The notes beneath the pieces were generated by a model. That model was not told the DNA's origin, ran no database searches, and saw only the letters and a list, made by a program, of their open reading frames with translations. The translations under genes were made by a program, and so were the position numbers. From Ignavibacteriales bacterium (GTDB taxonomy: Bacteria; Bacteroidota; Ignavibacteria; Ignavibacteriales; Melioribacteraceae), in assembly GCA_020061355.1 (NCBI GenBank), contig JAGUYK010000012.1, forward strand, positions 39,399 through 103,398: a stretch of 64,000 bases of DNA, given 5' to 3'. Positions 35,886 to 54,655 of this stretch are shown here, in pieces (the stretch's first letter is position 1; every line of letters starts with the position of its first letter).

Positions 35886-37037
35886 TTATTTTTTAGCAGC
35901 TTGCCAGGTCTTATAAAAATTTAAGATACTTTGAGGTGCATAAGTATACCATGCATAACCGGTTCGACGTTCTCTTTCAACTTCTGACATTGAATAGACC
36001 TTTTTCCCATCTCTATTGCAGAATAGCTGTCTTTGAGTTCCAAGTTCAGTAAAACGAGTCCATATATAAGGAGCATCGGGATCTTCAACAACAACCTTAT
36101 CCAAATTTGTTGAATGATATTTATAGTCGGTCTGTTCGGATTCAATTGTTTTAACTTTTATTCCAGAAATTTTACTCAGCTCAAACCACTCAACGGCTGA
36201 ATTTACTGAACGAATAACTCTTTCATCAGGATTAGCAAGGCTCATTAGAAATTCTACAATCTCGGCACTTTCCATATTACAAATCGAAGCCAGTTCAAAA
36301 GTTCGTGCACCGCGCGGTTCGAATGTAATATGATCATGTTGCTGACACCATACTGTAAGTTTACCATTATCATTGATTTGACAATTAAGGATGTTCTCAA
36401 TTCCTTTATTAAATGCGAGTTTAATTCTAGCACGAGCATTTGTTTCGATAAAAGAAAATTCCGGATCATTATTGACAATTTTTTGAAGTAGTTTCATTAT
36501 ACCAATCATTGCCCCGTCATTAAAAGTGATATGCTTCTGATAACCGCTTGTATCTGGAAAGAATTGAGGCCATCCACCGTTAGGATATTGTGCTGACAAA
36601 ATAAATTCCAATCCATTTAGAAATCCTGTTTTATATCTTTTATCATTAGTAACGAAAAATACTTTAGCTAAATATTCAGTATGACTATAAGTGGCTCCGT
36701 TATCAAAAGTCGTATTCAGTATAGTTTTATTCTTCCTTATAATTTCTTTCTGCTCATCTTTTAATATTGCCAGCATATCATAGTTCTTTGCCCAACCACC
36801 GTTTTCTTTTTGAAATAGAAGAATGTTCTCTGCAATATTGATTATATCGTTTTTCTTGAACCTTGGTTGATTTTTCACAGGAGAGATTATTTTATTTTCA
36901 TCATTGATATCATACCAGTGGTGAGAACTGTCGTAAAAACCTGAGATATTAATCTCATTATTATTAGATTTAGTTTGCTGAGAATGAAGAGATGAACATA
37001 AAATAAGAAGTAATATAAAGGGTTTCTTCAACATCAT
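35886..37037 (-). CDS. Pectate lyase, polysaccharide lyase family 10
   Basis: PL10 enzymes cleave polygalacturonate by beta-elimination. The 383-residue protein has a signal peptide (about 1-20). Its alpha/alpha motifs include NGGWAKNYDML (79-89), FDNGATYSHTEYLAKVF, NGGWPQFFPDTSGYQKHITF (153-172) and NDGAM, which match PL10 pectate lyases. It is the last gene of the 17-gene uronate operon, 1 bp after the cupin gene, giving an exported lyase together with cytosolic uronate enzymes. Confidence 0.9.
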   Translation of the reverse strand: MMLKKPFILLLILCSSLHSQQTKSNNNEINISGFYDSSHHWYDINDENKIISPVKNQPRFKKNDIINIAENILLFQKENGGWAKNYDMLAILKDEQKEIIRKNKTILNTTFDNGATYSHTEYLAKVFFVTNDKRYKTGFLNGLEFILSAQYPNGGWPQFFPDTSGYQKHITFNDGAMIGIMKLLQKIVNNDPEFSFIETNARARIKLAFNKGIENILNCQINDNGKLTVWCQQHDHITFEPRGARTFELASICNMESAEIVEFLMSLANPDERVIRSVNSAVEWFELSKISGIKVKTIESEQTDYKYHSTNLDKVVVEDPDAPYIWTRFTELGTQRQLFCNRDGKKVYSMSEVERERRTGYAWYTYAPQSILNFYKTWQAAKK

Positions 37038-37038
37038 A

Positions 37039-37479
37039 TCATTTTTTCAAATATTTTTTGATTACTAAATATTTTAGTTCTGAATCGCCAACGTTTTTAA
37101 TTGCATGCTCAACTTCCGAAGGGCAATAAAGACTGGTCATGGGTCCGACATTTTTTGTTCTTCCGTCTAAGTAAAACTCAGCCGTTCCTTGCAGAATAAA
37201 AAAGAATTCGTCTTCAGTGTGTTTGTGAGGCGGGTGAGTTGCAGAATGAGGAGCAACAACACTTAACTTAACTGTTTTGCCCTCTGCAAAATTTTTATCT
37301 GCAAACCAGTACTGGTATCCCACTTTAGTTTCTTCTGTATTCGCCGGATTGAATTCGTTAACACAATTTTCTATTGTATATTCCTTCTTATCGGTATTAC
37401 TTGCTGTTTGCGAAAGAATAAATGAAAAACAAGCAAAAGTAAAAAATAAAAACGAAGTGATAATAAATTTTGATTTCAT
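37039..37479 (-). CDS. Secreted/periplasmic cupin-domain protein
   Basis: A small single-domain cupin (146 residues from the chosen start) with an N-terminal signal (FIITSFLFFTFACFSFILSQ). The metal site is seen in HPPHKHTEDEFFFILQG, with the second cupin motif in SEVEHAIKNVGD. The ATG at 37479 overlaps the kduD stop as ATGA, which fixes the start; an upstream ATG at 37491 is less likely. Cupins of this kind in pectin loci have been linked to uronate or oligogalacturonide binding or isomerisation, but the role here is not known. Confidence 0.8.
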   Translation of the reverse strand: MKSKFIITSFLFFTFACFSFILSQTASNTDKKEYTIENCVNEFNPANTEETKVGYQYWFADKNFAEGKTVKLSVVAPHSATHPPHKHTEDEFFFILQGTAEFYLDGRTKNVGPMTSLYCPSEVEHAIKNVGDSELKYLVIKKYLKK

Positions 37480-38237
37480 CTTCCCATCCAACCACCGTCA
37501 ACTGTTACAACGGTGCCATTTAAATATTTAGATGCATCGGAACAGAGGAACACAACTGTGCCCATTAAATCCTCTGGGGTACCCCATCTTCCAGCCGGTA
37601 TGCGATCGAGAATTGATTTATTACGAACCGGATCTTCACGTAAAGGTCTGGTGTTTTCTGTTGCAATATAACCTGGTGCAATTGCATTTATGGTAACACC
37701 TTTCGAAGCCCATTCATTTGCAAATGCCATTGTTAGTTGTTTAACACCGCCTTTGGATGCGGCATAACCCGGCACAAGAATTCCACCCTGAAACGAAAGA
37801 AGAGATGCAATGAATACGACTTTTCCATAACCCCTTTCAGCCATATCTTTTCCAAACTCCCGTGTAAGAATAAACTGTGATGTTAAATTTATCTCAATTA
37901 CCTTATCCCAGTATTCGTCCGGGTGTTCTGCAATCGGTTTACGTAAAATTGTACCGGCGTTATTAACAAGAATATCAATTCGATCGAAATCAGATTTAAC
38001 ACCTTTTATAAACTGATAAAGATCCTCACGATTTGAAAAATCGCATACATAGGATTTAAATTTTCTACCTGTGCTGGAGATCAATTTTTCAGTCTCAGAG
38101 AAATCGCTTTCATAAGAAACAGTAACTATATCTGCACCGGCCTGAGCAAGTGCTAAGGCATAGCTCTTACCGATCCCTCTATTACCTCCGGTTACTAAAG
38201 CCGTTTTCCCATCCAGTTTGAAATCCTCAAGTACCAT
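37476..38237 (-). CDS. kduD: 2-dehydro-3-deoxy-D-gluconate 5-dehydrogenase (KduD)
   Basis: KduD reduces 2,5-diketo-3-deoxygluconate to KDG with NAD(P)H, the last step for unsaturated uronates released by pectate lyases. This 253-residue short-chain dehydrogenase has TGGNRGIG (16-23), NNAG (92-95) and catalytic Y158/K162 (GYAASKGG). LREDPVRNKSILDRIPAGRWG near the C-terminus is characteristic of KduD. It follows kduI by 23 bp and overlaps the cupin by 4 bp. Context strengthens KduD over other SDR roles. Confidence 0.93.
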   Translation of the reverse strand: MVLEDFKLDGKTALVTGGNRGIGKSYALALAQAGADIVTVSYESDFSETEKLISSTGRKFKSYVCDFSNREDLYQFIKGVKSDFDRIDILVNNAGTILRKPIAEHPDEYWDKVIEINLTSQFILTREFGKDMAERGYGKVVFIASLLSFQGGILVPGYAASKGGVKQLTMAFANEWASKGVTINAIAPGYIATENTRPLREDPVRNKSILDRIPAGRWGTPEDLMGTVVFLCSDASKYLNGTVVTVDGGWMGR

Positions 38238-38260
38238 TTTAGCTCCGATTCATATTTACA

Positions 38261-39094
38261 TTATTTTAATTGATCCATCGGAATCCAATCCATGTCATCA
38301 AAAACCTGGTTTTCGCCGCCCATTGCCCAGATGAACGAATAATTCTGCGTACCGCACCCGGCATGCATCGACCAGCTTGTTGATAACACTGCTTGCTCAT
38401 TACGGATTATTATATGTCTTGTTTCGCTTGGTTCGCCCATCATATGGACAACAATTGAATCAGGATTGATATTGAAATACATATACACTTCCGACCTTCT
38501 TTGATGAGTATGGGCTGGCATAGTGTTCCAGACATTACCTTCATCCAGTTCGGTTAAACCCATAACTAATTGACAGGTCGGCATTGTGCCGGGATGAATG
38601 TACTGATATATGGTCCTTTTATTTGCAGTTTCCTGAGAACCTAATTTCCTTGGAGTTGATTCACTGAATTTTATATGAGTTGTTGGGTAATCCTTATGAG
38701 CCGGATAGCTGACAAAATAATACTTTGCCGGTTTTGCTGCACTTGCACTTTCAAACTCGATGATTTTTGATCCTCTTCCAATATAGAGACCGTCACGATT
38801 TTCCATTTTATACTTTTTACCGTCGATATAAATTGTACCTGCCCCGCCAATGTTTATAACACCTACCTCACGGCGTTCGGCAAAATATTCTGCAGCCATT
38901 TCTTTTTTAGATGCCGCCAGTTTCAATTTTTTACCTGATGGAACAACACTTCCGGTAATCGAACGGTCAACATCTGAATAGATCATCGGGATTTTATTTT
39001 TTTCAAAAAGACTATCAATTAGAAATGATTTACGTAATTCATCGGTTGTAAATTTCTTAAAACCATTCTGATCGGGTGAATACCTGACTTCCAT
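38261..39094 (-). CDS. kduI: 5-dehydro-4-deoxy-D-glucuronate isomerase (KduI)
   Basis: KduI converts the open form of unsaturated galacturonate (DKI) to 2,5-diketo-3-deoxygluconate. The 277-residue protein from the chosen ATG reads MEVRYSPDQNGFKKFTTDEL at its start, as in the family. The metal-binding cupin segment is MPAHTHQRRSEVYMYF, and HAGCGTQNYSFIWAMGGENQ is conserved near the C-terminus. A longer frame starts at 39121 and would overlap tkt, but AGAGAGG precedes the ATG at 39094 and the length then matches KduI. Confidence 0.95.
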   Translation of the reverse strand: MEVRYSPDQNGFKKFTTDELRKSFLIDSLFEKNKIPMIYSDVDRSITGSVVPSGKKLKLAASKKEMAAEYFAERREVGVINIGGAGTIYIDGKKYKMENRDGLYIGRGSKIIEFESASAAKPAKYYFVSYPAHKDYPTTHIKFSESTPRKLGSQETANKRTIYQYIHPGTMPTCQLVMGLTELDEGNVWNTMPAHTHQRRSEVYMYFNINPDSIVVHMMGEPSETRHIIIRNEQAVLSTSWSMHAGCGTQNYSFIWAMGGENQVFDDMDWIPMDQLK

Positions 39095-39111
39095 TTTATC
39101 CTCTCTTATGT

Positions 39112-41097
39112 CTAAATCCAATGTTTAATTTTTTCTGCAACATGTTGTGGAGTAAAACCAAATTTCTCTGCAAGAGTTTTATACGGACCAGAAGCACCGA
39201 AACCGGTCATACCAATTGTCAGCAATTTTTGTCTAAACAGATCGCCCCAGCCGGTCATAGTGGCAGCTTCAATTACAACTACAGGAACATCAGCAGGGAA
39301 TATTTTTTCTTTATAATCATTCGATTGTTTATCAAACACTTCGCGCGAAGGAATTGAAACAACCCTTATTGATAACTCCGATAATAGTTTTTTAGCATCT
39401 TCTGCAATAGGTACTTCCGAACCGCTGGCAGCTATAACTAGATCTAGTTTCTCTTTATTTTCTTTTGATATTATATAAGCACCTTTCAATACATCTTCCG
39501 GTTTGAAATCCTTTTCTCTTTCGAAAGCTTCTATTTTTTGTCTTGATAATATTAAGGATATTGGTCCGTCTTTATGACGAAGTGCGAAAGCCCATGCAAT
39601 TGCAGTTTCAATTCCATCTGCAGGTCTGAAAACAGTCGAATTTGGGATTGCTCTTAGTACTGCAAGGTGTTCAACCGGTTGATGGGTCGGTCCGTCTTCC
39701 CCAACAAAAATACTATCATGAGTAAAAACATAAATAACCGGGATTTGCATAATTGCTGCCAGACGAATTGTTGGACGCATGTAATCACTAAACACAAAAA
39801 AAGTTGCACCGAAAGCTTTGAATCCTGCGTACAATGTAATTCCGTTTAGTATGGCTCCCATTCCATGTTCCCGGATTCCGAAATGAAAATTTCTTCCTTC
39901 GAACTTTCCGGGTGAAATAGCATCAAATCCATTCATCATCGTATTTGTTGAAGGTGCAAGATCGGCAGAACCGCCAATAAAATTTGGAACAATCTGAGCA
40001 ATTTTTTGAATCACTTTACTTGATAAGGTTCTTGTTGCATTTGGTTCTTTTGGCACTGCGGCTAAGAGTTCTTCTTCAAGATTCTCAGGAAGAGTTTGAT
40101 TAATAAATTTATCAAACAGACTGGCTTTTTCGGCATTTGATTTTTTCCACTCATCAAATTCCTTTTGCCAATTTAAATATACTTTATTCATCTCTTCTTT
40201 ACGGAAAGCAAAGAGTCCTGCAACTTCCTTTGGAACATAAAATTCTTTATCTTCAGGCCAATTCAGATTTTTCTTTGTTGCAAGTAATTCATCTTTACCA
40301 AGCGGAGCTCCATGAACTTCATGAGTATTAAATTTATTCGGGCTGCCGTAACCGATCAATGATTTTGTAATTATGATTGAAGGACGATTTTTTTCATTTT
40401 GTGCGGCAACAATCGCTTTTCTAATTTCATCATGATTGTATGCATCTGCTCTTAATACCTGCCAGCCATAACTTTCAAATCGTTTTCCAACATCCTCGCT
40501 AAATGTCAAATCGGTATGCCCTTCTATTGTAATTCCATTATCATCATAGAAATAAATTACATTGCCGAGTTTCAAGTGTCCTGCAATTGATGCCGCTTCG
40601 GAACTAACGCCTTCCATTAGATCACCATCACCGCAAATAGCATAGATATAATTATTTCCAAAAAGATTTTCACCAAATCGTGCTGAAAGCATTTTAGAAG
40701 CTATAGCCATACCGATTCCATTACCGAAACCCTGCCCTAACGGACCCGTAGTAGTTTCTACACCCGGTAAATGTCCGTATTCAGGATGACCTGCAGTCCT
40801 ACTTCCCCATTGTCTGAAAGATTTCAAATCATCAATTGTGCAGTCGTATCCGCTTAGATGAAGTAAGGAATAAATTAGCATTGAACCGTGTCCGGCAGAA
40901 AGAACAAAGCGGTCACGGTTAACCCATTTAGGGTCATCAGGATTGTGTTTAAGAAATTCAGTCCATAAAATTGTAGCAACGTCAGCCATACCCATCGGCA
41001 TGCCGGGGTGCCCGCTATTCGCTTTTTGAACACCTTCGGCAGCTAAAATTCTGATTGTGTTTGCAGCAAGTTTTTTTAATTCAATATTGTTCGACAT
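39112..41097 (-). CDS. tkt: Transketolase
   Basis: Transketolase moves two-carbon units between pentose and hexose phosphates using thiamine diphosphate. The 661-residue protein has the N-terminal ANSGHPGMPMGMAD, SAGHGSMLIYSLLHL, the ThDP motif GDGDLMEG (156-163) and the pyrimidine-domain GIREHGMGAILNG. Placement between gnd and kduI, inside an operon for uronates, is unusual: it suggests that carbon from this operon enters the pentose phosphate pathway. A role as the only genomic transketolase cannot be judged from this window. Confidence 0.96.
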   Translation of the reverse strand: MSNNIELKKLAANTIRILAAEGVQKANSGHPGMPMGMADVATILWTEFLKHNPDDPKWVNRDRFVLSAGHGSMLIYSLLHLSGYDCTIDDLKSFRQWGSRTAGHPEYGHLPGVETTTGPLGQGFGNGIGMAIASKMLSARFGENLFGNNYIYAICGDGDLMEGVSSEAASIAGHLKLGNVIYFYDDNGITIEGHTDLTFSEDVGKRFESYGWQVLRADAYNHDEIRKAIVAAQNEKNRPSIIITKSLIGYGSPNKFNTHEVHGAPLGKDELLATKKNLNWPEDKEFYVPKEVAGLFAFRKEEMNKVYLNWQKEFDEWKKSNAEKASLFDKFINQTLPENLEEELLAAVPKEPNATRTLSSKVIQKIAQIVPNFIGGSADLAPSTNTMMNGFDAISPGKFEGRNFHFGIREHGMGAILNGITLYAGFKAFGATFFVFSDYMRPTIRLAAIMQIPVIYVFTHDSIFVGEDGPTHQPVEHLAVLRAIPNSTVFRPADGIETAIAWAFALRHKDGPISLILSRQKIEAFEREKDFKPEDVLKGAYIISKENKEKLDLVIAASGSEVPIAEDAKKLLSELSIRVVSIPSREVFDKQSNDYKEKIFPADVPVVVIEAATMTGWGDLFRQKLLTIGMTGFGASGPYKTLAEKFGFTPQHVAEKIKHWI

Positions 41098-41126: not shown

Positions 41127-42596
41127 TTAGACATTATAAGTTGTTGATGCAGTAGATCCTCCTCTTCCGGTCCAGTTGGTATGGAAAAATTGACCCCGGG
41201 GTTTATCAACTCTTTCGTAAGTATGTGCTCCAAAATAATCGCGTTGAGCCTGCAAAAGGTTAGCAGGTAGTCTTCCATTTCTAAAACCGTCAAAATAGTT
41301 TAATGCAGTTGAAAGAGCCGGAATCCAGATTCCGTTAGTAACTGCAGCGGCAACAACTCTTCTCCATGATTCCTGTGATGATTCGATTTTTTCTTTAAAG
41401 AAAGGATCGAGAAGAAGATTTGATAGATCCGGCATTTTATCGAATGCCTCTTTAATTTTAGCAAGGAATATGGAACGGATTATACAACCACCGCGCCACA
41501 TTAATGCAATTCCGCCGTTATTTAAATTCCATTCATATTCTTTTGCCGCGTATCTCATCAATACGTATCCCTGGGCATAGGAAACGATTTTAGAAGCATA
41601 AAGAGCTTGACGAAGATCTTCGATGAATTGTTTTTTATCGCCTGCAAATTTTGGCTTCGGTCCATTCAAAACTTTCGATGCTTCAACCCTTTCATCCTTC
41701 AATGCAGATAAAGTTCTGCCGTACACTGCTTCGCCGATTAATGTTAACGGAGCACCAACATCCAATGATGCTAAAACAGTCCATTTACCTGTTCCTTTTT
41801 GTCCGGCAGTATCAAGAATTTTTTCGACAAGCGGTGAACCATCTTCATCTTTGTAAGCAAGAATATCACGTGTAATTTCAATCAAATAACTATCGAGTTC
41901 CCCTTCGTTCCATTCCTTAAATACATTATACATTTCATCATAATTCAGTCCAACATAGTCCTTCATAATTTGATAAGCTTCGCAAATTAATTGCATGTCG
42001 CCGTATTCAATGCCATTGTGAACCATTTTAACAAAATGACCGGCACCATCCTGACCAACCCAATCGCAGCAAGGTGAGCCGTCTTCAACTTTTGCAGCAA
42101 TTGATTGAAAGATCGGTTTAACAAATGGCCATGCAGCAGGTGAACCGCCAGGCATAATTGATGGTCCTTTCAATGCACCTTCTTCACCACCGGAAACCCC
42201 TGTTCCAATGTAAAGGAATCCTTTCTCCTCAACATATTTTGTTCTTCTAATTGTATCCGGGAAATGAGAATTACCACCGTCAATTATTATATCACCTTTT
42301 TCAAGATGAGGAATTAAAAGTTCAATAAAATCATCAACTGGTTTTCCGGCTTTTACCATAAGCATAATTTTTCTTGGTGTTTTCAAAGAAGCAACTAACT
42401 CTTCTATTGATGAAGTACCGATTACTTTTTTTCCTTTACCTCGTCCGTTTACAAAACTGTTAACCTTTTCAACTGTGCGGTTATAAACGGCAACAGTAAA
42501 ACCGTGACTTTCCATGTTCAGTACTAAGTTCTCCCCCATTACAGCTAATCCGACCAATCCTATGTCTGCCTTTGCAGTTAAATCCACTTTTTGCAT
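41127..42596 (-). CDS. gnd: 6-phosphogluconate dehydrogenase (decarboxylating)
   Basis: Gnd oxidises 6-phosphogluconate to ribulose-5-phosphate with CO2 release. The 489-residue protein is full length: [17 protein letters not shown] (12-28), [29 protein letters not shown] and the C-terminal [16 protein letters not shown] are all family marks. It lies between the LarA-family gene (20 bp) and tkt (29 bp). Gnd is not needed for the standard Uxa/Uxu/Kdg route, so its presence here calls for a source of 6-phosphogluconate from the same operon. Confidence 0.97.
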
Positions 42597-42616: not shown

Positions 42617-43891
42617 TCAGTTATTAAAACGATCTTTGTGTGCCCACAATCCTAATGCCGGATTTGAAATGTAAAATACTTCTTCACCATCAGATAAAGT
42701 ATTATATCCATCAACCAGTTTCCCGGGATCATATTTATTTGTCATAGTGGTCAGGTCTGCATATTTAAAGTTCACGCTCTCAATTTCTTCTTTTGATAAA
42801 TTACCAGGACAATAGGTTATAGAAAATCTATTCTCTGATGAACCATGAATAAGGTGTGCGGCAGCACTGAGATTATTTTTCAGATCATCATTTTCTTCAA
42901 CGAATTTTAATATTTCCGGTGTTGTTTTGTAACCATATTTTCTAATTAGTCTATCGATTTCCTTATCCTCACCGAATTCTTTAAGACCGGGTGCAAGAAC
43001 TATTAATTCTCCGCCATCAGCAATTGCCATACGTGTACGGTAAATGCTTTTATTTCCAAGCCAGGTACTTTTAAACTCATCAGGATCCAGGTAGACTACA
43101 ACTTTTTTCAATGGCTTATCGAGCATAACGAAATTAACTTTCAAAGAAAGTTCGGATGCCAGTTTGAAGCACTCATAGTCATCACCAATAAATAATCCCT
43201 TAATAACAAGTTCACCTATTTCATTTTTGTCAACCACGGTCAATATGTAAATAATCGGAAGATGTCTGGCAAAGTTTTCGGAAGCATAGTTCAAAACTTT
43301 TCTTACCGGGTTATCGGCTCTTCCCATTATTCTTTCCATTCCGTAAACCGCACCGAGGAAATGGCTTTTATTTATTCCTTCTCGTCCGCCGGTTCCAACA
43401 AAAATATTTTTGTTATAATTAGCCATTCCTATCACTTCATGAGGAACTACCTGACCGACCGAAATAATAAGATCGTGATTACCTTCAACCAATAATTTGT
43501 TTACCTGAGCAGGCCAGGAATAATTAAGTTTACCTTCAGAAACTTCATTAACAAATTCTGCAGGTACTTCACCAAGTGTTTGAAGATCACTCCGCCAGTT
43601 ATGAGTTCTGAAGAGATCGAGCGGAATATTGCCATACATAGTTTTGATTTCATGTTCGGTCATCTTTGAATGAGTACCGAGTGCAGGAAGTATATCTGTA
43701 AGGTATTCTTTGTAATAGTAATAAATATATCGTGTAATGATTCCGGCTTGCGAATGGAATCGCGTAAAATCAGGCGGAATGACCAGTACCCGTTTTTTTA
43801 TACCGAGCTTAGCAAGTGAAGAAAAAATGGCTTCACTTATTTCATCTTCAGTTAAAAATTTATGCTCATCACCTTTAACATAAAGTAACAT
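42617..43891 (-). CDS. LarA-family nickel-pincer racemase/epimerase homologue
   Basis: LarA (DUF2088) enzymes racemise or epimerise 2-hydroxyacids using a nickel-pincer nucleotide bound to Lys. This 424-residue protein keeps the catalytic set: D41/R44 (PPDFTRFH), H74 (GTHSKMTEHE), H151 (VVPHEVIGM), K161 as pincer anchor and H177 as nickel ligand. The K161 and H177 spacings from H151 (10 and 26 residues) equal those of L. plantarum LarA (H174, K184, H200). Homologues include a D-gluconate 2-epimerase (gluconate/mannonate), a tempting role beside a mannonate-forming reductase and gnd. No pincer-synthesis genes (larB, larC, larE) are in the window. Confidence 0.88.
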   Translation of the reverse strand: MLLYVKGDEHKFLTEDEISEAIFSSLAKLGIKKRVLVIPPDFTRFHSQAGIITRYIYYYYKEYLTDILPALGTHSKMTEHEIKTMYGNIPLDLFRTHNWRSDLQTLGEVPAEFVNEVSEGKLNYSWPAQVNKLLVEGNHDLIISVGQVVPHEVIGMANYNKNIFVGTGGREGINKSHFLGAVYGMERIMGRADNPVRKVLNYASENFARHLPIIYILTVVDKNEIGELVIKGLFIGDDYECFKLASELSLKVNFVMLDKPLKKVVVYLDPDEFKSTWLGNKSIYRTRMAIADGGELIVLAPGLKEFGEDKEIDRLIRKYGYKTTPEILKFVEENDDLKNNLSAAAHLIHGSSENRFSITYCPGNLSKEEIESVNFKYADLTTMTNKYDPGKLVDGYNTLSDGEEVFYISNPALGLWAHKDRFNN

Positions 43892-45963: not shown

Positions 45964-46809
45964 TCAAACCCCCGAATAAGCGCTGAATCCGCCATCAACC
46001 GGGACAACTATGCCGGTAACAAACTTTGAAATGTCGGAAACCAGATAAAGAAGTGTACCGGACACTTCATCAGGTTCACCAAATCTACCCATTGGAGTGT
46101 TGGAAATTATTTTGTTTCCGCGCGCTGTAAGTCCGCCTGTCTTTTCGTCGGTTAATAAAAACCTGTTTTGGTTGGTAAGAAAGAATCCCGGTGCAATAGC
46201 GTTAACCCTGATATTTACTTTTGCAAAATGAACTGCAAGCCATTGTGTCAAATTATTTATTGACGCTTTTGCGGCAGAATACGCCGGAATTTTAGTTAGT
46301 GGTCTATATGAATTCATCGAAGAAATATTTATCACCGATCCTCCTCTAACCAGCATATCTTCCGCAAATACCATTGTGGGAAGTACGGTACCGAGAAAGT
46401 TAAGGTCGAACACACTTCTAAAACCTTCCAGGTCCAATCCGAAAAATGATTTTGACAAGTCACTAATATTTTCATTTGTAACAAATTCATTTGCAGTAGT
46501 CGCAGTTGGTGCGTTACCACCGGCTCCGTTAATAAGTATATCAATCTTACCAAGTTCTTCATTAACCTGAGATTTTGCTTTTATTAAACTCTCCTTATCT
46601 AGAACGTTAGCAACCACACACAAAACAGGCGCACCGCTTTTCTTGGCAAGTCCCTGAGCACAATCATCGCATCTGCCCTGTTTGTAATCCATAATAGCTA
46701 CTTTTGCCCCGGCATTCAACATAGTTTGTGCAAATACATTACCGAATACACCGCATCCGCCGGTGACAACACAAACTTTTCCTTTTATATCATCAAAAGA
46801 TACTTCCAT
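45964..46809 (-). CDS. SDR-type fructuronate reductase (D-mannonate oxidoreductase)
   Basis: A 281-residue short-chain dehydrogenase that by sequence matches the SDR form of D-mannonate oxidoreductase (functional counterpart of UxuB), reducing D-fructuronate to D-mannonate. Motifs: TGGCGVFGN (16-24), NGAGGNAP (94-101), ISSMNSYRPLTKIPAYSAAK with catalytic Y177 and K181, and the diagnostic IAPGFFLTNQNRFLLT and FVTGIVVPVDGGFSAYSGV. It stands between kdgK and eda. With UxaC and UxaE it completes galacturonate to mannonate. Confidence 0.9.
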   Translation of the reverse strand: MEVSFDDIKGKVCVVTGGCGVFGNVFAQTMLNAGAKVAIMDYKQGRCDDCAQGLAKKSGAPVLCVVANVLDKESLIKAKSQVNEELGKIDILINGAGGNAPTATTANEFVTNENISDLSKSFFGLDLEGFRSVFDLNFLGTVLPTMVFAEDMLVRGGSVINISSMNSYRPLTKIPAYSAAKASINNLTQWLAVHFAKVNIRVNAIAPGFFLTNQNRFLLTDEKTGGLTARGNKIISNTPMGRFGEPDEVSGTLLYLVSDISKFVTGIVVPVDGGFSAYSGV

Positions 46810-46820: not shown

Positions 46821-47468
46821 TTATTTTTTAACAGCATTGAAAATGTTATCCATAATAATTCTAGCATTCTCTGTAAGTTTAGAATAATTTTCCTTTTCAA
46901 TTGCTTCTTTATCAAGAAGTGCCGAACCTACACCCACAGCGCATGCGCCCGCGTTCAACCAATCACCTGCATTGATTAAAGTTACTCCGCCGGTGGGCAT
47001 TAATTTTAAGTGAGGCATCGGAGCAAGAATTCCTTTGAAGAAATCCATACCCAAAACATCAGCCGGGAAAACTTTAATTATATCTGCCCCTGCTTCAAAA
47101 GCTGTTTGAATTTCTGTTGGAGTAAAGCAACCGGGCATTGCAGGTATATCAAATTTATGAGCTGCATCAATTATTTCATTTTTAAAGATCGGGCTAACAA
47201 CATACTTAGCACCGGCTTTAATTGCATCTTCTGCAACATTTTTATTCAGTACCGATCCAACGCCAATAATTATATTTTTATCAAGCTCATTCGACATTTT
47301 TTCAATCAACTGAATAGCATTAGGAACCGTCATAGTTATTTCAGCAACTGAAATACCACCTTCATAAAGTGCTTCAATAACTTTCTTAAGTTTTTCCGGC
47401 TCTTTAATTCTAAGTACCGCGACTGCTTTACGTTTTACTATTTCATCAACTATCTTTTCTCTGTTCAT
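46821..47468 (-). CDS. eda: KDPG/KHG aldolase
   Basis: Eda cleaves 2-keto-3-deoxy-6-phosphogluconate to pyruvate and glyceraldehyde-3-phosphate through a Schiff base. The 215-residue class I aldolase has the E43-containing strand VAEITMTVP, GAKYVVSP (86-93), MPGCFTPTE (111-119) and the Schiff-base Lys132 in IIKVFPADVLG. It follows uxaE by 1 bp and precedes the SDR by 11 bp. Confidence 0.95.
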   Translation of the reverse strand: MNREKIVDEIVKRKAVAVLRIKEPEKLKKVIEALYEGGISVAEITMTVPNAIQLIEKMSNELDKNIIIGVGSVLNKNVAEDAIKAGAKYVVSPIFKNEIIDAAHKFDIPAMPGCFTPTEIQTAFEAGADIIKVFPADVLGMDFFKGILAPMPHLKLMPTGGVTLINAGDWLNAGACAVGVGSALLDKEAIEKENYSKLTENARIIMDNIFNAVKK

Positions 47469-47469
47469 A

Positions 47470-49020
47470 TTATTTGAATGGCTCTAAATGTTTACGAAAA
47501 TGTTTTACCAAAAAATCGTAATGTGTTTCTTCGTTTTCAATTAGACATTGAAGAATTTTATCTTTGAAAAGATAATTACCTGTTGGATCTTTGTCGGTTA
47601 ATACACGGCCGAATGTTACATGAAGAACCTGACGTACATCATTTGAATCAAATAAAATAATTAACTGTTCATTACCATAATCTTTCCCGGCAAGAACTTT
47701 ATTAACATCGGCAGAAACGTGATAGGTTTTCCTTTCTGTTTCATAAAGGTTTCTTGAGAAATCGAGAATTTCTCTAAATATGTCCGGACTTTTTGCAGCC
47801 ACAACTTTTAAAGCTTCCAGATAACTTGTTCCGGCTGTTTTAACATGGGTATAAGCTTCTTTAAGTGAACCGATAACTCTATAGACAGAGAATTTATCGC
47901 TACCCGAATGGAGACTTATTTTATAATTACCAAAATGTTTTGTGATTGCAAGATGCTTCTGGTATTCTGCCTTAAATAAAGAAAGATCCCCTTTATAATC
48001 GATTCCTTTTTCGAAGTCGCCAATAAATCGCGGTGCCAGACTGATGAACTTTACGTTTAACCTGTTAAGTTCATTCACAAAGAAAAAGTGTTCAAATGGA
48101 CTTGTAACAGAATCTGTTTCATCAACCGACACTTCCACTTCAAATTTATCCTGACTGCATTTTGAACTGATGTAATCGAACAATTTTTTAATATGTGCAA
48201 TCGCTTTACCGTACTTGGAATAAGCGCGCAAGAAATCATTTACGGAAACACTAATGCTAAAGCCTTCCGAAATGACAAAACTTTTATTAGCATATCTTTT
48301 CTCTGCAGCCGGGAATGAATCCTTTAATTCGCTCCATGGCAATGCTGAAGCAATCTTAAACAACGTTTCTTCATTGTAATTATCTGCATTATTATCTACA
48401 TGTTCGCTCGGGTCAAATGTAAACATTGTGAACCCGGCATTGAGCATCAGGTCGATATCATCGTTGTTTTTCAAGTGATCAGCATCCGAGCCGAAACCAT
48501 CTTTGTAACCTTCCTGAAAGACCGCCCACACAGCAGCATCCATAACCATTTCGGGTTTTCTGTTTGTTCTGGAAAGTTCGCGAATCGATTGCTGTGCAAG
48601 AATCGGTTGAAAGTCACTCCCCTTCAACGACCGGATATGTCCGGCATTTGCTAATCCTAATCTGTCACCAAATCCGAAGGAATTATTCAACCCAAGAACT
48701 TTGGGAATTGTATACATGAATATGGATTGAAGTTTTCTCCTGTTAAATGTATTTAGGAAACATTTTTTAATAAACAGGTTCGATTGATCACTTTCTAATA
48801 AAACACCTTCAAATTGTTTTAAATGATTCTCATTTTCAGCAACAATAAAAAGAAATTTATTATTTTCTTCCCGTCCAATAAAAAAGAGATTTTTTTCATA
48901 TTCATTTACAGATTTTGGATAAATATCAATTGAATATTTTTTTGTTAATTGAAAATTAGCCGGAGTATTTTGATCGTTATAAAGTTGTTTAATACTTTTT
49001 TTGATTTCACTGAATGTCAT
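47470..49020 (-). CDS. uxaE: Tagaturonate epimerase (UxaE family)
   Basis: UxaE converts D-tagaturonate to D-fructuronate, an enzyme described in Thermotoga that joins the galacturonate and glucuronate branches without UxaB/UxaA. The 516-residue protein shows family-style segments GFGDRLGLANAGHIRSL, the AVWAVFQEGYKDGFGSDADH segment, a TFDPSEHVDN stretch and EVSVDETDSVTSPFEHFFF. It ends in HYDFLVKHFRKHLEPFK. It is 12 bp downstream of uxaC, the enzyme that makes its substrate, which strengthens the call. Confidence 0.85.
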   Translation of the reverse strand: MTFSEIKKSIKQLYNDQNTPANFQLTKKYSIDIYPKSVNEYEKNLFFIGREENNKFLFIVAENENHLKQFEGVLLESDQSNLFIKKCFLNTFNRRKLQSIFMYTIPKVLGLNNSFGFGDRLGLANAGHIRSLKGSDFQPILAQQSIRELSRTNRKPEMVMDAAVWAVFQEGYKDGFGSDADHLKNNDDIDLMLNAGFTMFTFDPSEHVDNNADNYNEETLFKIASALPWSELKDSFPAAEKRYANKSFVISEGFSISVSVNDFLRAYSKYGKAIAHIKKLFDYISSKCSQDKFEVEVSVDETDSVTSPFEHFFFVNELNRLNVKFISLAPRFIGDFEKGIDYKGDLSLFKAEYQKHLAITKHFGNYKISLHSGSDKFSVYRVIGSLKEAYTHVKTAGTSYLEALKVVAAKSPDIFREILDFSRNLYETERKTYHVSADVNKVLAGKDYGNEQLIILFDSNDVRQVLHVTFGRVLTDKDPTGNYLFKDKILQCLIENEETHYDFLVKHFRKHLEPFK

Positions 49021-49032: not shown

Positions 49033-50445
49033 TTATAGTTTATAAGTTTTTTTTACCAGGTTATATGTTAGGTCTTTTGCAACGCTAAAAGCTTCATCGA
49101 GCGATATTATATGCCGGGCAACCAAGCCGGCTAAAAAGTTCGAATCAATACGGCGAGCCAAATCGTGACGTGCGGGTATTGAGACAAATGCACGTGTGTC
49201 ATCATTAAAACCAACTGTATTATAAAACCCTGCTGTTTCGGTTACCATTTGTCTATATCGCGTCATTCCTTCAATACTATCATGAAACCACCATGCCGGA
49301 CCAAGTTTCATTGATGGATAATGACCTGAAAGCGGTGCGAGTTCGCGAGAGTAGGTACTTTCATCCAACGTGAAAACAATTACAGTCAATTTGGGATTGT
49401 TACCATATTTGTTAAGCAACTCTTTCAGATTGAATGTAAACTCTTCGTGCATCGGTATATCAGCACCTTTATCCGCACCATAATTCGCAAAGATCACCGG
49501 ATTATGATTTCGATATGAGCCGGGATGAATCTGCATTACTAGTCCATCTTCTATGCTCATTCTTGCCATTTCCATTAACATGTGAGCGGTAAATAAATTT
49601 TCATCTTCAAGAGTTGATTTCCCTTTCAATCCTCTTTGAAATATTTTTTCGGCTTCGGAAGCGGATAATTCGTGAGTGAATGGAGAGAAGACCCCATGAT
49701 CAGTAGAAGTACAGCCTATCGTTTTAAAAAAGGATCTACGTTCTTCAAGAGATTGAATAAATATTTGAAATGATGAAATTTCATAGCCGCAAACTTTTCC
49801 AAGCAATTCAACATTCGATTTCCAATTTGGATTAGATAAATCCGTAACTGCATCGGGTCTGAAACATGGAATTACTCTGCCGCTCCACCCCGACTCATTG
49901 ATACTTTTATGATATTCCAGACTATCAGTTGATCCGTCTGTAGTAGATAAAACTTCGATGTCAAATTTTTCAAATAATCTTCGCGGTAAAAATTCAGGTG
50001 AAATTAATTTCTCATTTAATTCATCATAGATTTTATCTGCATTAGATCCATTTAATTTTTCCCTAATACCAAAAATTATTGAGAATTCGTGATCCAGCCA
50101 TATACCAGACGGAGTTCCTTGAAAAAGAAAATAATTCTCTGCAAATAATTTCCAAATTTTCCGCGGATCTTTTTCGACTTCAGTACCATTGACTGAAGGA
50201 ATTCCCAATGCTTCCATAGAAATTCCTTGAGAGTAGAGCATCCTGAAAAGATAATGGTCTGGTGTGATAAATAATTGAGTTGGATTTTCGAATGGCTTGT
50301 TATCGACAAAGATTTTAGGATCCACATGCCCGTGCGGACTTATTATCGGTAATGATTTAACACTGCTGAATATTTCACGAGCGTAGCCTCGAATTAAAGA
50401 GTCTGAATCAAAAAAACGATCAGGGTGAAGTTCAAAATGTGACAT
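49033..50445 (-). CDS. uxaC: Uronate isomerase
   Basis: UxaC isomerises D-galacturonate to D-tagaturonate and D-glucuronate to D-fructuronate. The 470-residue amidohydrolase-superfamily protein has the metal His pair in ISPHGHVDP (H38, H40), AENYFLFQGTPSGIWLDHEF, LSTTDGSTDSLEYH and VIPCFRPDAV. Later segments include MQIHPGSYRNHNP and FNDDTRAF. It follows the DUF4861 gene by 14 bp and precedes uxaE by 12 bp. Confidence 0.96.
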   Translation of the reverse strand: MSHFELHPDRFFDSDSLIRGYAREIFSSVKSLPIISPHGHVDPKIFVDNKPFENPTQLFITPDHYLFRMLYSQGISMEALGIPSVNGTEVEKDPRKIWKLFAENYFLFQGTPSGIWLDHEFSIIFGIREKLNGSNADKIYDELNEKLISPEFLPRRLFEKFDIEVLSTTDGSTDSLEYHKSINESGWSGRVIPCFRPDAVTDLSNPNWKSNVELLGKVCGYEISSFQIFIQSLEERRSFFKTIGCTSTDHGVFSPFTHELSASEAEKIFQRGLKGKSTLEDENLFTAHMLMEMARMSIEDGLVMQIHPGSYRNHNPVIFANYGADKGADIPMHEEFTFNLKELLNKYGNNPKLTVIVFTLDESTYSRELAPLSGHYPSMKLGPAWWFHDSIEGMTRYRQMVTETAGFYNTVGFNDDTRAFVSIPARHDLARRIDSNFLAGLVARHIISLDEAFSVAKDLTYNLVKKTYKL

Positions 50446-50459: not shown

Positions 50460-51692
50460 TTAAAATTCGATAATAAGCGGATTATTAAACCTGATTAATG
50501 AATTATCCAGGTACTTAACAAATTCTTTCTCATTTTTTATTCCGTCTGGTTCCTGAACCCAGGCAGCAGTAAAGTAATACGTTACTTTTGAATCGAGAGG
50601 GTTAAGAACTAAAACATAACTAAGTTTATCTTCGGTTAACTGGATTAAATTTTCATTATTATATAAAACTGCAATTCCCAGATCATCATCTGCTAACGAT
50701 TGTTTTCCATATAAAGCTATGTATTGCCATTTTCCGGTTGATTCACTCTTAATAAAATTAGTTCCGTCATATTTTGCCAGACCCGTTACTAAATTGTCGG
50801 CATTTTCAATTTTGAGATCGCATTTGGTTAATCTGCTTCGCGCATTTATCGAAATATTAGAATAGAGGCTGTACTTCTTACCATCGACAAGCCATCCGTA
50901 GTAATCAATTGTAAATTCAGATTTCAAGGGACCATTCTTAATCAGGTTATATTCAATCGAATCTGTTTTTGAAACCATATTTACTTTATCACTACTCCAC
51001 ATACCGAATGATCCGATACCAAGTGTGCTTCCAACCTTAAAGATATCCATCCCCCATTCCTGCATTTTATGATATGAATCATCACTTGCAACTGTATCAT
51101 GTACGCCAACTTCGTTCAAAAGAATTTTTTGTATTTTCTTACCGAATATATCGGTAGCATTCCGCCAGTCAAGATAGAGTCTATAACCGACAATTTCGGA
51201 TTCCCATCCCGGACCTTCATACTTAAATAACGCATCGTGATCTTTGTGAATTGCCGGCACTTTATAACTGGCAACACTTTCAAATTCCGTCCCTCTAAAT
51301 TTTCCATCAAAATAAATCCCACCTTTCTTTGGTGATAACTCTGCATAAGTTTCATTTTTATATTTTGACGGAATAATTCCATTCCCATATTCGATTTTAA
51401 TTTCTTTTTTTTCGCCGGCATTCAATGATATTATAAAACTAATCAATTTTTCACCATTGACATCTTCGATCTGAAAAGGAATTTCTTCGGCTTCGGAAGT
51501 GACAATAAAAGAATTCATGTCGAAACCTGAATACTTTTTAAATATTTCAGAAATATGAATGCTAACGAATTCATCTAATCTTTCAATTGAGGTTGGATTG
51601 CTAACTAAAATGCTGATTGTTTTAGTATTATTAGAACATCCGATTGAAGCTGTAATAATCAATATTGCTGCAATAATTTTTTTAACCATCAT
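50460..51692 (-). CDS. DUF4861 lipoprotein
   Basis: A 410-residue protein with a lipoprotein signal (ILIITASIGCSNN; Cys19 expected to be lipidated). The rest is a beta-rich domain matching DUF4861, common in pectin and rhamnogalacturonan loci of Bacteroidota and relatives. Marks are RGTEFESVASYKVPAIHKDH, GPGWESEIVGYRLYLDWRN and EWGMDIFKVGSTLGIG. The biochemical role is not settled to my knowledge; an uronide binding or cleaving function in the periplasm is likely from context. It is separated from dctM by 158 bp containing a strong hairpin. Confidence 0.8.
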   Translation of the reverse strand: MMVKKIIAAILIITASIGCSNNTKTISILVSNPTSIERLDEFVSIHISEIFKKYSGFDMNSFIVTSEAEEIPFQIEDVNGEKLISFIISLNAGEKKEIKIEYGNGIIPSKYKNETYAELSPKKGGIYFDGKFRGTEFESVASYKVPAIHKDHDALFKYEGPGWESEIVGYRLYLDWRNATDIFGKKIQKILLNEVGVHDTVASDDSYHKMQEWGMDIFKVGSTLGIGSFGMWSSDKVNMVSKTDSIEYNLIKNGPLKSEFTIDYYGWLVDGKKYSLYSNISINARSRLTKCDLKIENADNLVTGLAKYDGTNFIKSESTGKWQYIALYGKQSLADDDLGIAVLYNNENLIQLTEDKLSYVLVLNPLDSKVTYYFTAAWVQEPDGIKNEKEFVKYLDNSLIRFNNPLIIEF

Positions 51693-51725
51693 ATATACCT
51701 TTTTAATTTTTTAACAAGATATTTT

Positions 51726-51763
51726 GGGATGGCAACCTAAACTCATCAATCGGTTACCATCCC
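51726..51763 (-). other. Intra-operon stem-loop between dctM and the DUF4861 gene
   Basis: On the minus strand GGGATGGTAACC pairs with GGTTGCCATCCC, a 12-bp stem with one G-T pair and a 14-nt loop. No T tract follows, so it is more likely an mRNA-processing or 3'-protecting element that sets different levels for the TRAP genes and the enzymes. Confidence 0.6.
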
Positions 51764-51850
51764 CATTCATGGGAGGCACCATGAAAAACTATTTATTGTT
51801 TCTTAAATCATTTCATCGAACAAAACTGATTCAATACAAAATCCTTTCAA

Positions 51851-53149
51851 TTAATAACCGAAAAATTTCGGTATAAACATGCTTAAGTCAGGTAAATAAG
51901 TAACAACCATCAAAGTAATTATCATTGCTATAAACATAGGTATCAATGGTTTAATAACTTTAGTAATCGGAAGCTCGGCAACAGAACAACCTACAAATAA
52001 AACGCTGCCAACCGGAGGAGTGCATAAACCGATGCTTAAATTCATTACCATAATAATTCCGAAATGAATCGGATCGATTCCAAGCTGAATTGCTACCGGG
52101 AGAAAAATAGAAGTGAATATCAATACTGCCGGCGTCATGTCCATAAATGTTCCGACTAGAAGAAGTATAAGATTTATTATGATTAAAATGACAAACTTAT
52201 TATCCGATAGTGAAATCAATGCAGCTGCAACGTTTTGAGGAATATTTTCGTAAGCCATAACCCATGACATTGCCATAGAAGTACCGACGAGCATCATAAC
52301 GACTGCCGTAGTAGAAGCTGAGTTAAGTAATATTGCAGGAAGGTCCTTGAATTTAATTTCACGATAAAAAAATACCGAAAGTATAAAAGCATATAAAACT
52401 GCAATAGCTGATGCTTCGGTTGCAGTAAAATATCCTGCAACAATTCCGCCAATTACAATTATAATAAGAAGCAGACTTGGAATTGCATTCAAAAATTTTT
52501 TAACTGCATCACCAAATGTAAAATGCATAGTAACTTTATATTTATTTTTTTTTGCAAAGATACCGGCTGGAATCATTAATGAAATACCAAGTAAAAGGCC
52601 GGGAATGTATCCTGCAAGGAATAGTGCCGCTATAGAAACTCCACCGCTTGCTAATGAATAAACAATCAAGATATTGCTTGGTGGAATTATCATTCCAGTA
52701 GTTGCCGAGGTAATATTCACAGCAGCAGAAAACCCGGGGTCATACCCCTCTTTTTTCATTACCGGTGTCATAAAACCACCGATTGCAGAAGCAGCAGCAA
52801 CTGCAGAACCTGAAATAGCACCAAAGAGCATCGCAGCCATGATATTTACGAATGCCAGACCACCAGGTAATTTGCCAACGAGAATTTTAGCAAAGTCAAT
52901 TAACCGGCGTGCTATTCCTCCGCTATTCATCAACTGTCCGGCAAGTATAAAAAACGGGATTGCAAGTAAAGCAAAACTATCGATTCCAGTAGCCATCCTC
53001 TGCGCAACAGTTGTTAATGAAGGTAAAGTATAGATACTCATCAACATAGTAACAAGACTTGAGATTCCAATACTAAAAGATATTGGCACTCCCACTGACA
53101 GTAGAATAACAAATGTTAAGACCAAAACAATTATTTCAAGTGATTCCAT
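51851..53149 (-). CDS. dctM: TRAP transporter large permease (DctM)
   Basis: DctM is the 12-helix Na+-coupled channel subunit of TRAP transporters. The 432-residue protein has the family segments VPISFSIGISSLVTML, FILAGQLMNSGGIARRLIDF, ATTGMIIPPSNILIVYS, GTFMDMTPAVLIFTSIFLPV and IGLCTPPVGSVLFVG. It follows dctQ by 37 bp. With dctP and dctQ it forms a full TRAP system, expected from its context to import galacturonate or another uronate. Confidence 0.96.
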   Translation of the reverse strand: MESLEIIVLVLTFVILLSVGVPISFSIGISSLVTMLMSIYTLPSLTTVAQRMATGIDSFALLAIPFFILAGQLMNSGGIARRLIDFAKILVGKLPGGLAFVNIMAAMLFGAISGSAVAAASAIGGFMTPVMKKEGYDPGFSAAVNITSATTGMIIPPSNILIVYSLASGGVSIAALFLAGYIPGLLLGISLMIPAGIFAKKNKYKVTMHFTFGDAVKKFLNAIPSLLLIIIVIGGIVAGYFTATEASAIAVLYAFILSVFFYREIKFKDLPAILLNSASTTAVVMMLVGTSMAMSWVMAYENIPQNVAAALISLSDNKFVILIIINLILLLVGTFMDMTPAVLIFTSIFLPVAIQLGIDPIHFGIIMVMNLSIGLCTPPVGSVLFVGCSVAELPITKVIKPLIPMFIAMIITLMVVTYLPDLSMFIPKFFGY

Positions 53150-53187
53150 AGTAAATTCATTTTTATATCAAAGTGGCACAATAAGAA

Positions 53188-53670
53188 CTATACTTCTTTT
53201 AATTTTTTAATTGCTTCTAAAATGAAATAGGTTGAATAGAATATTATTAACAAACCGCTTATCGGAACAACAAGGTAAACATATCCCAGGGGTACCTGTA
53301 ACGCAGCTGAAATTTGATTGAGACTTAGTGTAATTAAAACCAATCGAAAACCGCCAATAAGCATAACGACTAATGAGAAGAAAAGAATAGATAGCTGAAT
53401 AAATATTTCAAGATAAAGTTTCGGTCTCCCTTTTAACTGCATCGAAAGAAGGTCGATAGCAAGATGCATTTTCTGACCGGCGACATAACTTGCACCGAGA
53501 ATTCCCAACCACACAAGAGTATATCGTGCTAATTCTTCTGTAAAAGAACTTGGATTTTGAAGAACAAACCGGGAAAATACTTGCCAAAGAACATTAATTG
53601 TCATCAATGCCAGGATAAACACTAGAAACCATTTTAAAACAATATCAATTGCGGTTTTTATCTTAGTCAT
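53188..53670 (-). CDS. dctQ: TRAP transporter small permease (DctQ)
   Basis: A 160-residue four-helix membrane protein with the DctQ segment NVLWQVFSRFVLQNPSSFTE followed by ELARYTLVWLGILGASYVAGQ, and the conserved H-L-A-I-D-L. It overlaps the end of dctP by 8 bp and precedes dctM. It forms the membrane unit with DctM. Confidence 0.94.
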   Translation of the reverse strand: MTKIKTAIDIVLKWFLVFILALMTINVLWQVFSRFVLQNPSSFTEELARYTLVWLGILGASYVAGQKMHLAIDLLSMQLKGRPKLYLEIFIQLSILFFSLVVMLIGGFRLVLITLSLNQISAALQVPLGYVYLVVPISGLLIIFYSTYFILEAIKKLKEV

Positions 53671-54655
53671 TGTTATTTACCATTTTGATTTGTCTAATAA
53701 GTTTATATACAGAAGGTTCATTTTTGTATTCTTCAAAAAGGGGTTTAACTTTTTCTTCGAAAGGAGCTTTATCCGGATAATATACTGTAACACCGGCTTT
53801 TTGAACTTCGCGCAAAGCTTCTTCGGTTGCCTCTTTCCATAATTTTTTCTGATACTCAAATGATTCATCAGCTGCTTCCTGAATCCATTGTTGTTTCTGA
53901 GGTGAAAGATCATTCCATATTACAGTACTTATTAGAAGAACATCAGGCACAGATGTGTGTTCGTTAAGAGAATAATACTTGCATACTTCGTAATGACGTG
54001 ATAAATAAAAACTCGGTGGATTGTTTTCAGCTCCGTCAACCACTCCCTGCTGAAGTGCAGTGTATAATTCACCCCATGAAATTGGAGTTGCTGACCCGCC
54101 CAAAGCTTTGACCATTTTAACTGAAGTTGGGCTTTCCTGTGTACGGATCTTCAATCCTTTTAAATCATCTGGAGAAAGAATCGGCTTATTTTTTGTGTAA
54201 AAACTTCTGTTTCCTGCATCATAGTAACACAAACCCCTAAGCCAAAATTTTTCTGTGCTCTTTAATAGATCTTTGCCGACTTGACTTTTAAAAAAATCGA
54301 ACTTTTGTTTTTCATCTGCAAAAATAAATGGTAATGAGAATACTTTAAAATCAGGTACAAATCCTTCAAGAACAGAGGCTGAGACTTTAGTCATCCCCAG
54401 GCTTCCAATCTGAAGAAGCTCCAGACATTCACGTTCTGTTCCAAGTTGTTGACTTGGATAAATTGTAATTAGAATCGTTCCATTTGATTTTTCTTCAGCG
54501 CGTTCGGCAAGAAATAACATTGCCTGATGAACGGGATGAGATTGGTCTAAGCCATGACCAATTTTAATTCTTGTAATTTTAGTCTCTTTAGCACAACCAG
54601 ACAGAAGTAATAAACTGCCAAGTAGAAAAAATCCAATTCCATTTTTAACTTTCAT
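53663..54655 (-). CDS. dctP: TRAP transporter substrate-binding lipoprotein (DctP)
   Basis: A 330-residue periplasmic binding protein with lipobox LLLSGC (Cys21). The DctP fold is seen in IGHGLDQSHPVHQAMLFLAE, YPSQQLGTERECLELLQIG and the substrate-carboxylate Arg in LKGLKIRTQESPT. TPISWGELYTALQQGVVDGA and ENNPPSFYLSRHYEV follow. This subgroup typically binds sugar acids such as glucuronate or galacturonate. It is the first gene of the 17-gene operon and has a LacI-type operator about 100 bp upstream. Confidence 0.95.
   Translation of the reverse strand: MKVKNGIGFFLLGSLLLLSGCAKETKITRIKIGHGLDQSHPVHQAMLFLAERAEEKSNGTILITIYPSQQLGTERECLELLQIGSLGMTKVSASVLEGFVPDFKVFSLPFIFADEKQKFDFFKSQVGKDLLKSTEKFWLRGLCYYDAGNRSFYTKNKPILSPDDLKGLKIRTQESPTSVKMVKALGGSATPISWGELYTALQQGVVDGAENNPPSFYLSRHYEVCKYYSLNEHTSVPDVLLISTVIWNDLSPQKQQWIQEAADESFEYQKKLWKEATEEALREVQKAGVTVYYPDKAPFEEKVKPLFEEYKNEPSVYKLIRQIKMVNNND

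Follow-up and report, generated by a model that had tools for sequence, protein, structure and literature searches.

What becomes of D-mannonate in a bacterium that carries a hexuronate operon and no mannonate dehydratase UxuA? The question is raised by a 64,000-nucleotide stretch of DNA (“the window”) from an Ignavibacteriales bacterium of the family Melioribacteraceae (GCA_020061355.1, contig JAGUYK010000012.1, positions 39,399 to 103,398). Within it, 17 genes, all on the minus strand, form a predicted operon (35886..54655) that runs from dctP (54655) to a pectate lyase gene (35886). Gene content, gene order and absences were established by profile search. They suggest, with a probability of about 65% for the explanation as a whole, that the operon breaks down pectin-derived uronates in two branches, one of which would pass from D-mannonate to D-gluconate by a LarA-family 2-epimerase and then through a PfkB-family kinase, 6-phosphogluconate dehydrogenase (Gnd) and transketolase (Tkt) into the pentose phosphate pathway.

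The genome carrying the window (3.69 Mb in 47 contigs, 99.88% complete) has no match to UxuA (PF03786), in a search that was positive in five of 14 control genomes; dehydratases of the enolase family (ManD) were not searched for. A first-pass annotation of the window had noted the lack of UxuA and allowed that uxuA may lie elsewhere. The absence extends to the whole genome, and a uxuA gene elsewhere is ruled out. The canonical isomerase pathway (UxaC, UxaB/UxuB, UxaA/UxuA, KdgK, and Eda), with which the genome shares UxaC, Eda, and a KdgK-clade gene, lacks its mannonate dehydratase UxuA here. An exit by way of an Entner-Doudoroff or gluconate dehydratase was also ruled out, as the IlvD/EDD family has no candidate in this genome (search positive in all 14 controls); the dihydroxy-acid dehydratase of branched-chain amino acid synthesis therefore also seems to be missing. 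Standard gluconokinases are likewise excluded from the rest of the genome. The single FGGY_N match reaches 22.6 bits, below the cut-off of 28.8 (search positive in 11 of 14 controls), and the GntK type (TIGR01313) gave no match (positive in five of 14). The earlier remark that no gluconokinase is seen thus holds genome-wide for the FGGY (above cut-off) and GntK types, and has to be qualified by the PfkB-family protein of the operon, which is itself a candidate.

In the first branch, saturated galacturonate would be converted to D-mannonate by three enzymes: UxaC, a hexuronate isomerase forming tagaturonate from galacturonate (49033..50445; Pfam PF02614), UxaE, a tagaturonate/fructuronate epimerase (47470..49020; Pfam PF16257, 7e-175), and a UxaD-type short-chain dehydrogenase/reductase (SDR) reducing fructuronate to D-mannonate (45964..46809; NCBIfam NF006132, D-mannonate oxidoreductase, 386 bits, cut-off 281). 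With UxuA absent from the genome, LarA (42617..43891) would epimerize D-mannonate to D-gluconate and the PfkB protein (44815..45903; PF00294) would phosphorylate this to 6-phosphogluconate. Gnd, an NADP-dependent enzyme (41127..42596; TIGR00873, 774 bits, cut-off 427), would then release ribulose 5-phosphate, CO2, and NADPH, and Tkt (39112..41097; Pfam PF00456 and PF02779) would help to channel ribulose 5-phosphate into the pentose phosphate pathway. In the second branch, unsaturated ends would be taken to 2-keto-3-deoxygluconate (KDG) by KduI, an unsaturated-uronate isomerase (38261..39121; NF002091, 426 bits, cut-off 250), and KduD, a KDG 5-dehydrogenase working in the reductase direction (37476..38237), whose top model, NF005390, scores 353 bits, slightly short of its cut-off of 369. 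KDG would then pass to a KdgK encoded on another contig (C28) and to Eda/KdgA, the 2-keto-3-deoxy-6-phosphogluconate aldolase (46821..47468; Pfam PF01081; TIGR01182, 188 bits, cut-off 156).

The LarA protein carries a Lar_N domain (PF09861, 48 bits, cut-off 23.3) and scores 679 bits (cut-off 500) against the NCBIfam model NF052594, “nickel-dependent putative hexonate epimerase,” a match that places it in group 18 of the LarA superfamily. The sole solved relative found is 4nar (1e-41), the Thermotoga maritima protein GntE2 (PMC7583248). In that source GntE1 and GntE2 epimerize free D-mannonate, and a hexonate substrate for group 18 is put forward as a hypothesis only; mannonate/gluconate activity is described for LarAH15 and LarAH10 (PMC11770544). 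The residues known in L. plantarum numbering as R75, K184, and H200 (cofactor binding) and D72, H108, H174, and K298 (catalysis) correspond to R44, K161, H177 and D41, H74, H151, K281. The cofactor-binding R41, K164, and H180 of GntE2 match R44, K161, and H177; K161 and H177 were aligned to GntE2 and the other active-site positions were placed by motif and spacing. By motif and spacing, too, the protein has the EV loop (E152-V153) and the alpha-11 tryptophan (W277) shared by groups 18–20. We infer that LarA is a putative D-mannonate/D-gluconate 2-epimerase. The first-pass proposal that it turns mannonate into gluconate gains from the hexonate-epimerase model and from the assay of GntE2 on mannonate, and its substrate stays putative.

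Several of these genes keep company with LarA in relatives. We examined the best 80 of at least 578 confirmed LarA relatives, a set that leans toward close relatives, and, in the 51 loci with at least 2.5 kb on each side (29 short-flank loci were left out), scored same-strand genes up to 3.5 kb away from LarA. UxaD is a neighbor of LarA in 43 of the 51, Gnd in 45, and one of three kinases in 42: the type found in the window (PfkB-w) in 12, a second PfkB type (PfkB-6) in 23, and a PPi-PFK-like enzyme in seven. Thus, LarA mostly stands beside a mannonate-making reductase and a 6-phosphogluconate-using dehydrogenase; neither UxaD nor Gnd is present in four of the 51. Tkt is rarer (L003, L005, L007, L076, and Melioribacter roseus, L139). 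UxuA is near LarA in six loci (L007, L011, L016, L037, L063, L074), and in some of these it sits between the genes for UxaD and the kinase; the two exits from mannonate can thus occur side by side. A PdxB-type 4-phosphoerythronate dehydrogenase also occurs between or beside LarA and Gnd (L075 11282-12424, and 11 further cluster members).

The kinase was called KdgK in the first-pass annotation, and this name did not hold: the profile evidence supports the PfkB family only, and a separate KdgK-clade gene lies on contig C28. Nine PfkB-family matches were found in the genome, and one of them (L083, on C28) shares 76% identity with a KdgK-clade gene in L007. In the kinase tree, a quick one with a long-branch warning, the LarA-linked PfkB clade (16 rows, SH-aLRT 96) is separate from KdgK (15 rows, SH-aLRT 100), four of the 20 PfkB-w rows (L044_03, L065_12, L074_12, L080_06) group toward KdgK instead, and the operon protein belongs to another starred clade, outside the Eda-linked KdgK clade. 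Together with the KdgK-clade gene on C28, which rules out the operon protein as the sole KDG kinase of the genome, this separation means that it is probably not the KDG kinase of the pathway. The two kinds of kinase also occur together. A KdgK-clade gene lies near LarA in nine of the 51 loci, with a KdgK fragment alone in L042; one of the three kinases stands near a KdgK-clade gene in eight (L006, L027, L039, L043, L047, L051, L058, L061), and L007, L008, and L076 have both types farther apart. We infer that the operon PfkB most likely phosphorylates gluconate, making it a candidate D-gluconate 6-kinase, with KDG or mannonate as possible alternative substrates. The C28 gene (61313-62347; L137 9314-10348) adjoins an SDR, a major facilitator superfamily (MFS) transporter, and a heparinase/alginate-lyase-like protein (the lyase recognized by eye, the SDR and transporter also by match), a neighborhood that is perhaps an alginate- or ulvan-type utilization locus.

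LarA enzymes use a nickel-pincer cofactor (NPN), whose makers are LarB, LarE, and LarC (papers including PMC11796402). In the genome carrying the window, LarC (PF01969) has no match (search positive in six of 14 controls) and LarE (TIGR00268) none above cut-off, the top match being NadE, named by eye; LarB was not searched for. The assay suggested earlier had presumed a cofactor made by LarB, LarC, and LarE, and two of these makers, LarC and LarE, were not found. The opposite arrangement, larB/E/C without larA, is known (PMC11796402). A sample of the class comprised 197 genomes with a completeness of 90% or more, and 36 of them encode a group-18 LarA above cut-off; LarC is found in 21 of these, LarE in 19, and neither in 15. 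Three genomes without LarC and LarE are single contigs (G152, G187, G217). In the family of the window, 11 of 23 sampled genomes encode a group-18 LarA, and LarC is found in only one of the 11. Eleven genomes of the sample, including the window's own, have a group-18 LarA and lack LarC, LarE, and UxuA. Genomes with sub-cut-off fragments of group 18 were left out (G226 and G200, with LarC; G229, without).

Genomes with other LarA matches provide a comparison. Those with intermediate matches (139–188 bits) have LarC and LarE in 13 of 13 cases, and those with weak matches (<40 bits) have LarC in 11 of 15 and LarE in 10 of 15. Fisher's test on LarC gives p = 0.004 against the 13 intermediate genomes and 0.027 against all 28, values uncorrected for kinship and obtained with brackets set post hoc. 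Among the genomes of the LarA loci, LarC was found in 25 of the 50 checked (completeness not given), with 30 of the 80 loci unchecked. On the LarA tree, LarC status changes seven times, at least two of the changes being forced by starred branches; the tree cannot separate loss of LarC from gain, and the changes indicate more than one separation, or meeting, of group-18 LarA and the cofactor genes. The kinase type was considered as a marker of LarC loss, following a trend seen by eye in the 50-genome set, and was rejected, as LarC-plus loci of the class (L110, L113, L116, L122, L127) carry the window-type PfkB.

The LarA protein itself is well conserved. Its catalytic and cofactor-binding columns are identical in all 80 aligned rows (40 from LarC-plus and 40 from LarC-minus genomes; 74 distinct sequences), and at a majority threshold of 70% no alignment column distinguishes LarC-plus from LarC-minus rows; a 172-residue fragment (L088) and 30 rows with LarC status unknown were left out of this count and of the tree. 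The dN/dS ratio of the window's LarA is 0.057 against L001, from a LarC-minus genome, and 0.039 against L002, of unknown LarC status, both near dS saturation; against L003 saturation left no value. These ratios resemble those of neighboring enzymes of the operon, and judged by them LarA is under strong purifying selection. Given that LarA keeps its cofactor-binding and catalytic residues in a genome without LarC or LarE, it probably works, using a cofactor of the nickel-pincer type that the cell either scavenges or makes with unrecognized enzymes.

A cultured relative offers a further view of this situation. Melioribacter roseus (G187, L139) has a row of genes for an MFS transporter, UxaC, UxaE, Eda, UxaD, PfkB, LarA, Gnd, Tkt, KduI, and KduD, on a closed chromosome with group-18 LarA and without LarC and LarE, and uxuA lies elsewhere in its genome. 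Growth of M. roseus on pectin was not confirmed despite its pectinases (PMC3534657). This agrees with a shortage of cofactor in pure culture and is not proof of it, because the LarA step could be bypassed by UxuA and the paper itself puts forward other reasons.

Several points weigh against the route proposed here. The parts of PMC7583248 and PMC11770544 available report no activity for any group-18 LarA. None of the three kinases is found within 3.5 kb of LarA in nine of the 51 loci. The PPi-PFK-like enzyme of seven loci keeps its phosphofructokinase family assignment and may handle fructose 6-phosphate, which weakens the view that every enzyme in the kinase position is a gluconokinase. The absence of LarC is not peculiar to group 18, as four of the 15 weak-match genomes, all of genus g38, lack it as well; the idea that only group-18 LarA goes without LarC is weakened accordingly. 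These four (G060, G096, G118, G131) have a weak LarA-like match and lack LarE too, and their proteins perhaps do not use NPN, or perhaps represent a second case of decoupling. As regards the kinase, the nearest solved structure to the operon PfkB, 2afb, is annotated as a KDG kinase, and residues D304, R116, R124, and R188 are kept and shared with KdgK proteins, so the operon enzyme could phosphorylate KDG. We take D304 to be the catalytic aspartate and the three arginines to bind the carboxylate of the acid.

The alternatives bear on different steps. For the cofactor, a complete NPN pathway might exist whose enzymes have diverged beyond the reach of the LarC and LarE profiles. In Marinilabiliaceae LarC is indeed short and divergent, its best segment reaching only 71–87 bits, but the profile still found it, and the 15 genomes above yielded nothing for LarC even at E 1e-3 and no LarE above cut-off, with NadE as the best LarE match in the window's genome; we regard hidden enzymes of this kind as unlikely. 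In Alkaliflexus, LarE, LarB (both identified by eye), and LarC form a compact cluster (L099 8700-11133) in which LarC is short (287 aa) and His-rich, and similar weak LarC matches occur in seven other genomes of the 50-genome set. For mannonate, a ManD encoded elsewhere could be the alternative dehydratase, forming KDG, with the operon PfkB as a second KdgK and with LarA and Gnd serving imported gluconate or another hexonate. The resemblance of the PfkB to KDG kinases and the presence of Eda, KduI, and KduD in the same operon suit this arrangement. But the genome already has a KdgK-clade gene, the LarA-linked kinase forms a separate clade whose members occur beside KdgK in the same loci, and UxaD accompanies LarA in most loci, and we consider it improbable.

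A swap in the order of the two central steps has about as poor a standing, or slightly poorer. The PfkB would then phosphorylate D-mannonate, and LarA would epimerize 6-phosphomannonate to 6-phosphogluconate. An identical gene inventory would serve, and both activities occur in extracts of Lactobacillus suebicus, their genes being unidentified (PMC6978723). GntE1 and GntE2, however, act on the free acid (PMC7583248), and the available portions of PMC7583248 and PMC11770544 describe no LarA with a phosphate ester as its substrate. Last, LarA in genomes without LarC and LarE might be uncharged and idle, non-functional in pure culture and kept as a relic by its position in the operon, which the lack of both genes would fit and which is very improbable in view of its dN/dS of 0.04–0.06, its intact active-site columns in 40 of 40 LarC-minus rows, and the 11 such genomes that are also without UxuA.

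The route from mannonate by way of gluconate into the pentose phosphate pathway is well supported and is not new in principle. Its closest counterpart is the UxaR locus of T. maritima (aldH-pelB-gnd-uxaRED-gntEK), a pectin operon that shares Gnd, UxaE, UxaD, and a LarA-family mannonate/gluconate epimerase (PMC3750489, PMC7583248). For T. maritima such a route was put forward in 2012 (as related in PMC3750489 and PMC6978723), and the epimerase was assayed in 2020 (PMC7583248). As in this Thermotoga-type gntE/gntK route, UxaE, UxaD, the LarA epimerase, and Gnd co-occur in the operon described here; a recognized gluconokinase (FGGY or GntK) does not. T. maritima keeps uxuA and LarC, as our control genome searches show, and gntK, whereas the operon here has a PfkB kinase and stands without UxuA, LarC, and LarE; it has Tkt, KduI/KduD, and a TRAP transporter in addition. 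The galacturonate/phosphoketolase pathway of L. suebicus also leads from mannonate to 6-phosphogluconate and ribulose 5-phosphate, with UxuA listed as not detected, and differs in that mannonate is phosphorylated first, the genes are unidentified, and no LarA is implicated in the part of the source available (PMC6978723). The first-pass annotation expected the route to give NADPH. A net gain is doubtful, since each reduced cofactor made by Gnd should be offset by one consumed at the UxaD step, and the way to ribulose 5-phosphate is probably close to redox-neutral by analogy; that of L. suebicus is called redox-cofactor-neutral (PMC6978723).

As described in the first-pass annotation, the 17 genes lie on one strand and are closely packed, with measured spacings of −16 to +60 bp and a single exception, the 158 bp between dctM and the DUF4861 gene. 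Most of its enzyme family names are backed by models (UxaC, UxaE, Eda, UxaD, KduI, Gnd, Tkt, DctPQM, and PL10); KduD is just below cut-off, and KdgK is the name that fails. A TRAP transporter opens the operon, with the binding protein DctP (53663..54655; Pfam PF03480, 4e-86), which would have a role in hexuronate uptake, the small subunit DctQ (53188..53670; Pfam PF04290), and the large subunit DctM (51851..53149; Pfam PF06808), followed by the DUF4861 protein (50460..51692; Pfam PF16153). A HAD-family protein (43907..44791; Pfam PF13419) separates the kinase from LarA. A structure search gave no solved relative for it; it occurs in 11 of the 51 loci, including all seven with the PPi-PFK-like kinase, and might serve as a phosphatase in the repair of by-products of the kinase. 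The operon ends with a cupin whose N-terminus looks hydrophobic by eye (37039..37491; Pfam PF07883), presumably KdgF-like from its position, and the pectate lyase (35886..37037; TIGR02474, 318 bits, cut-off 190), assigned to PL10 in the first-pass annotation. On the same strand, the region 54884-63999 of the window holds more pectin genes (Pel9A-like, GH88, and GH28), and a TonB-receptor-like protein (61108-63999); some of the secreted proteins bear sorting tails for secretion.

The gap between dctM and the DUF4861 gene (51693..51850, minus strand, 158 nt) contains stem-loops. Its fold has a minimum free energy of −42.4 kcal/mol and a z-score of −4.0, equaled by none of 200 shuffles, so the hairpin noticed earlier is beyond chance. 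Stem-loops at the equivalent position in L001 (2975-3109) also have a z-score of −4.0; the same gap in L013 has a stem-loop of −37.4, computed without a shuffle control. The window has two tandem stem-loops 3′ of dctM, with the hairpin CATGGTGCCTCCCATG identical in the window and L001, and L013 has a different long stem. No Rfam match covers the hairpin, and two nearby ones are below their gathering scores. The stem-loops may mark a site of internal processing or attenuation where the transporter genes give way to the enzyme genes.

What is new is that UxuA has been lost from the genome, that the kinase receives a different assignment, and that an NPN-type enzyme occurs uncoupled from LarC and LarE. 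In the open-licence literature, judged by titles and the starts of abstracts among the matches listed, we found neither a PfkB gluconokinase nor a LarA described without LarB/C/E. The operon supplies a gluconokinase candidate in the PfkB family, next to a group-18 LarA of the kind that 11 sampled genomes carry without UxuA, LarC, and LarE. More tentatively, and at somewhat less than even odds, this lineage of Ignavibacteria may possess a hexonate epimerase of the nickel-pincer type that is both functional and essential in the absence of LarC and LarE, with a PfkB-family gluconokinase in the same operon; it would then use a second route to NPN or another nucleotide cofactor in the same pocket, or else draw on NPN as a shared community vitamin. 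Few cofactors are as unusual as NPN, and the cultured M. roseus, with a constrained NPN-type enzyme and neither LarC nor LarE, makes an alternative source of it testable.

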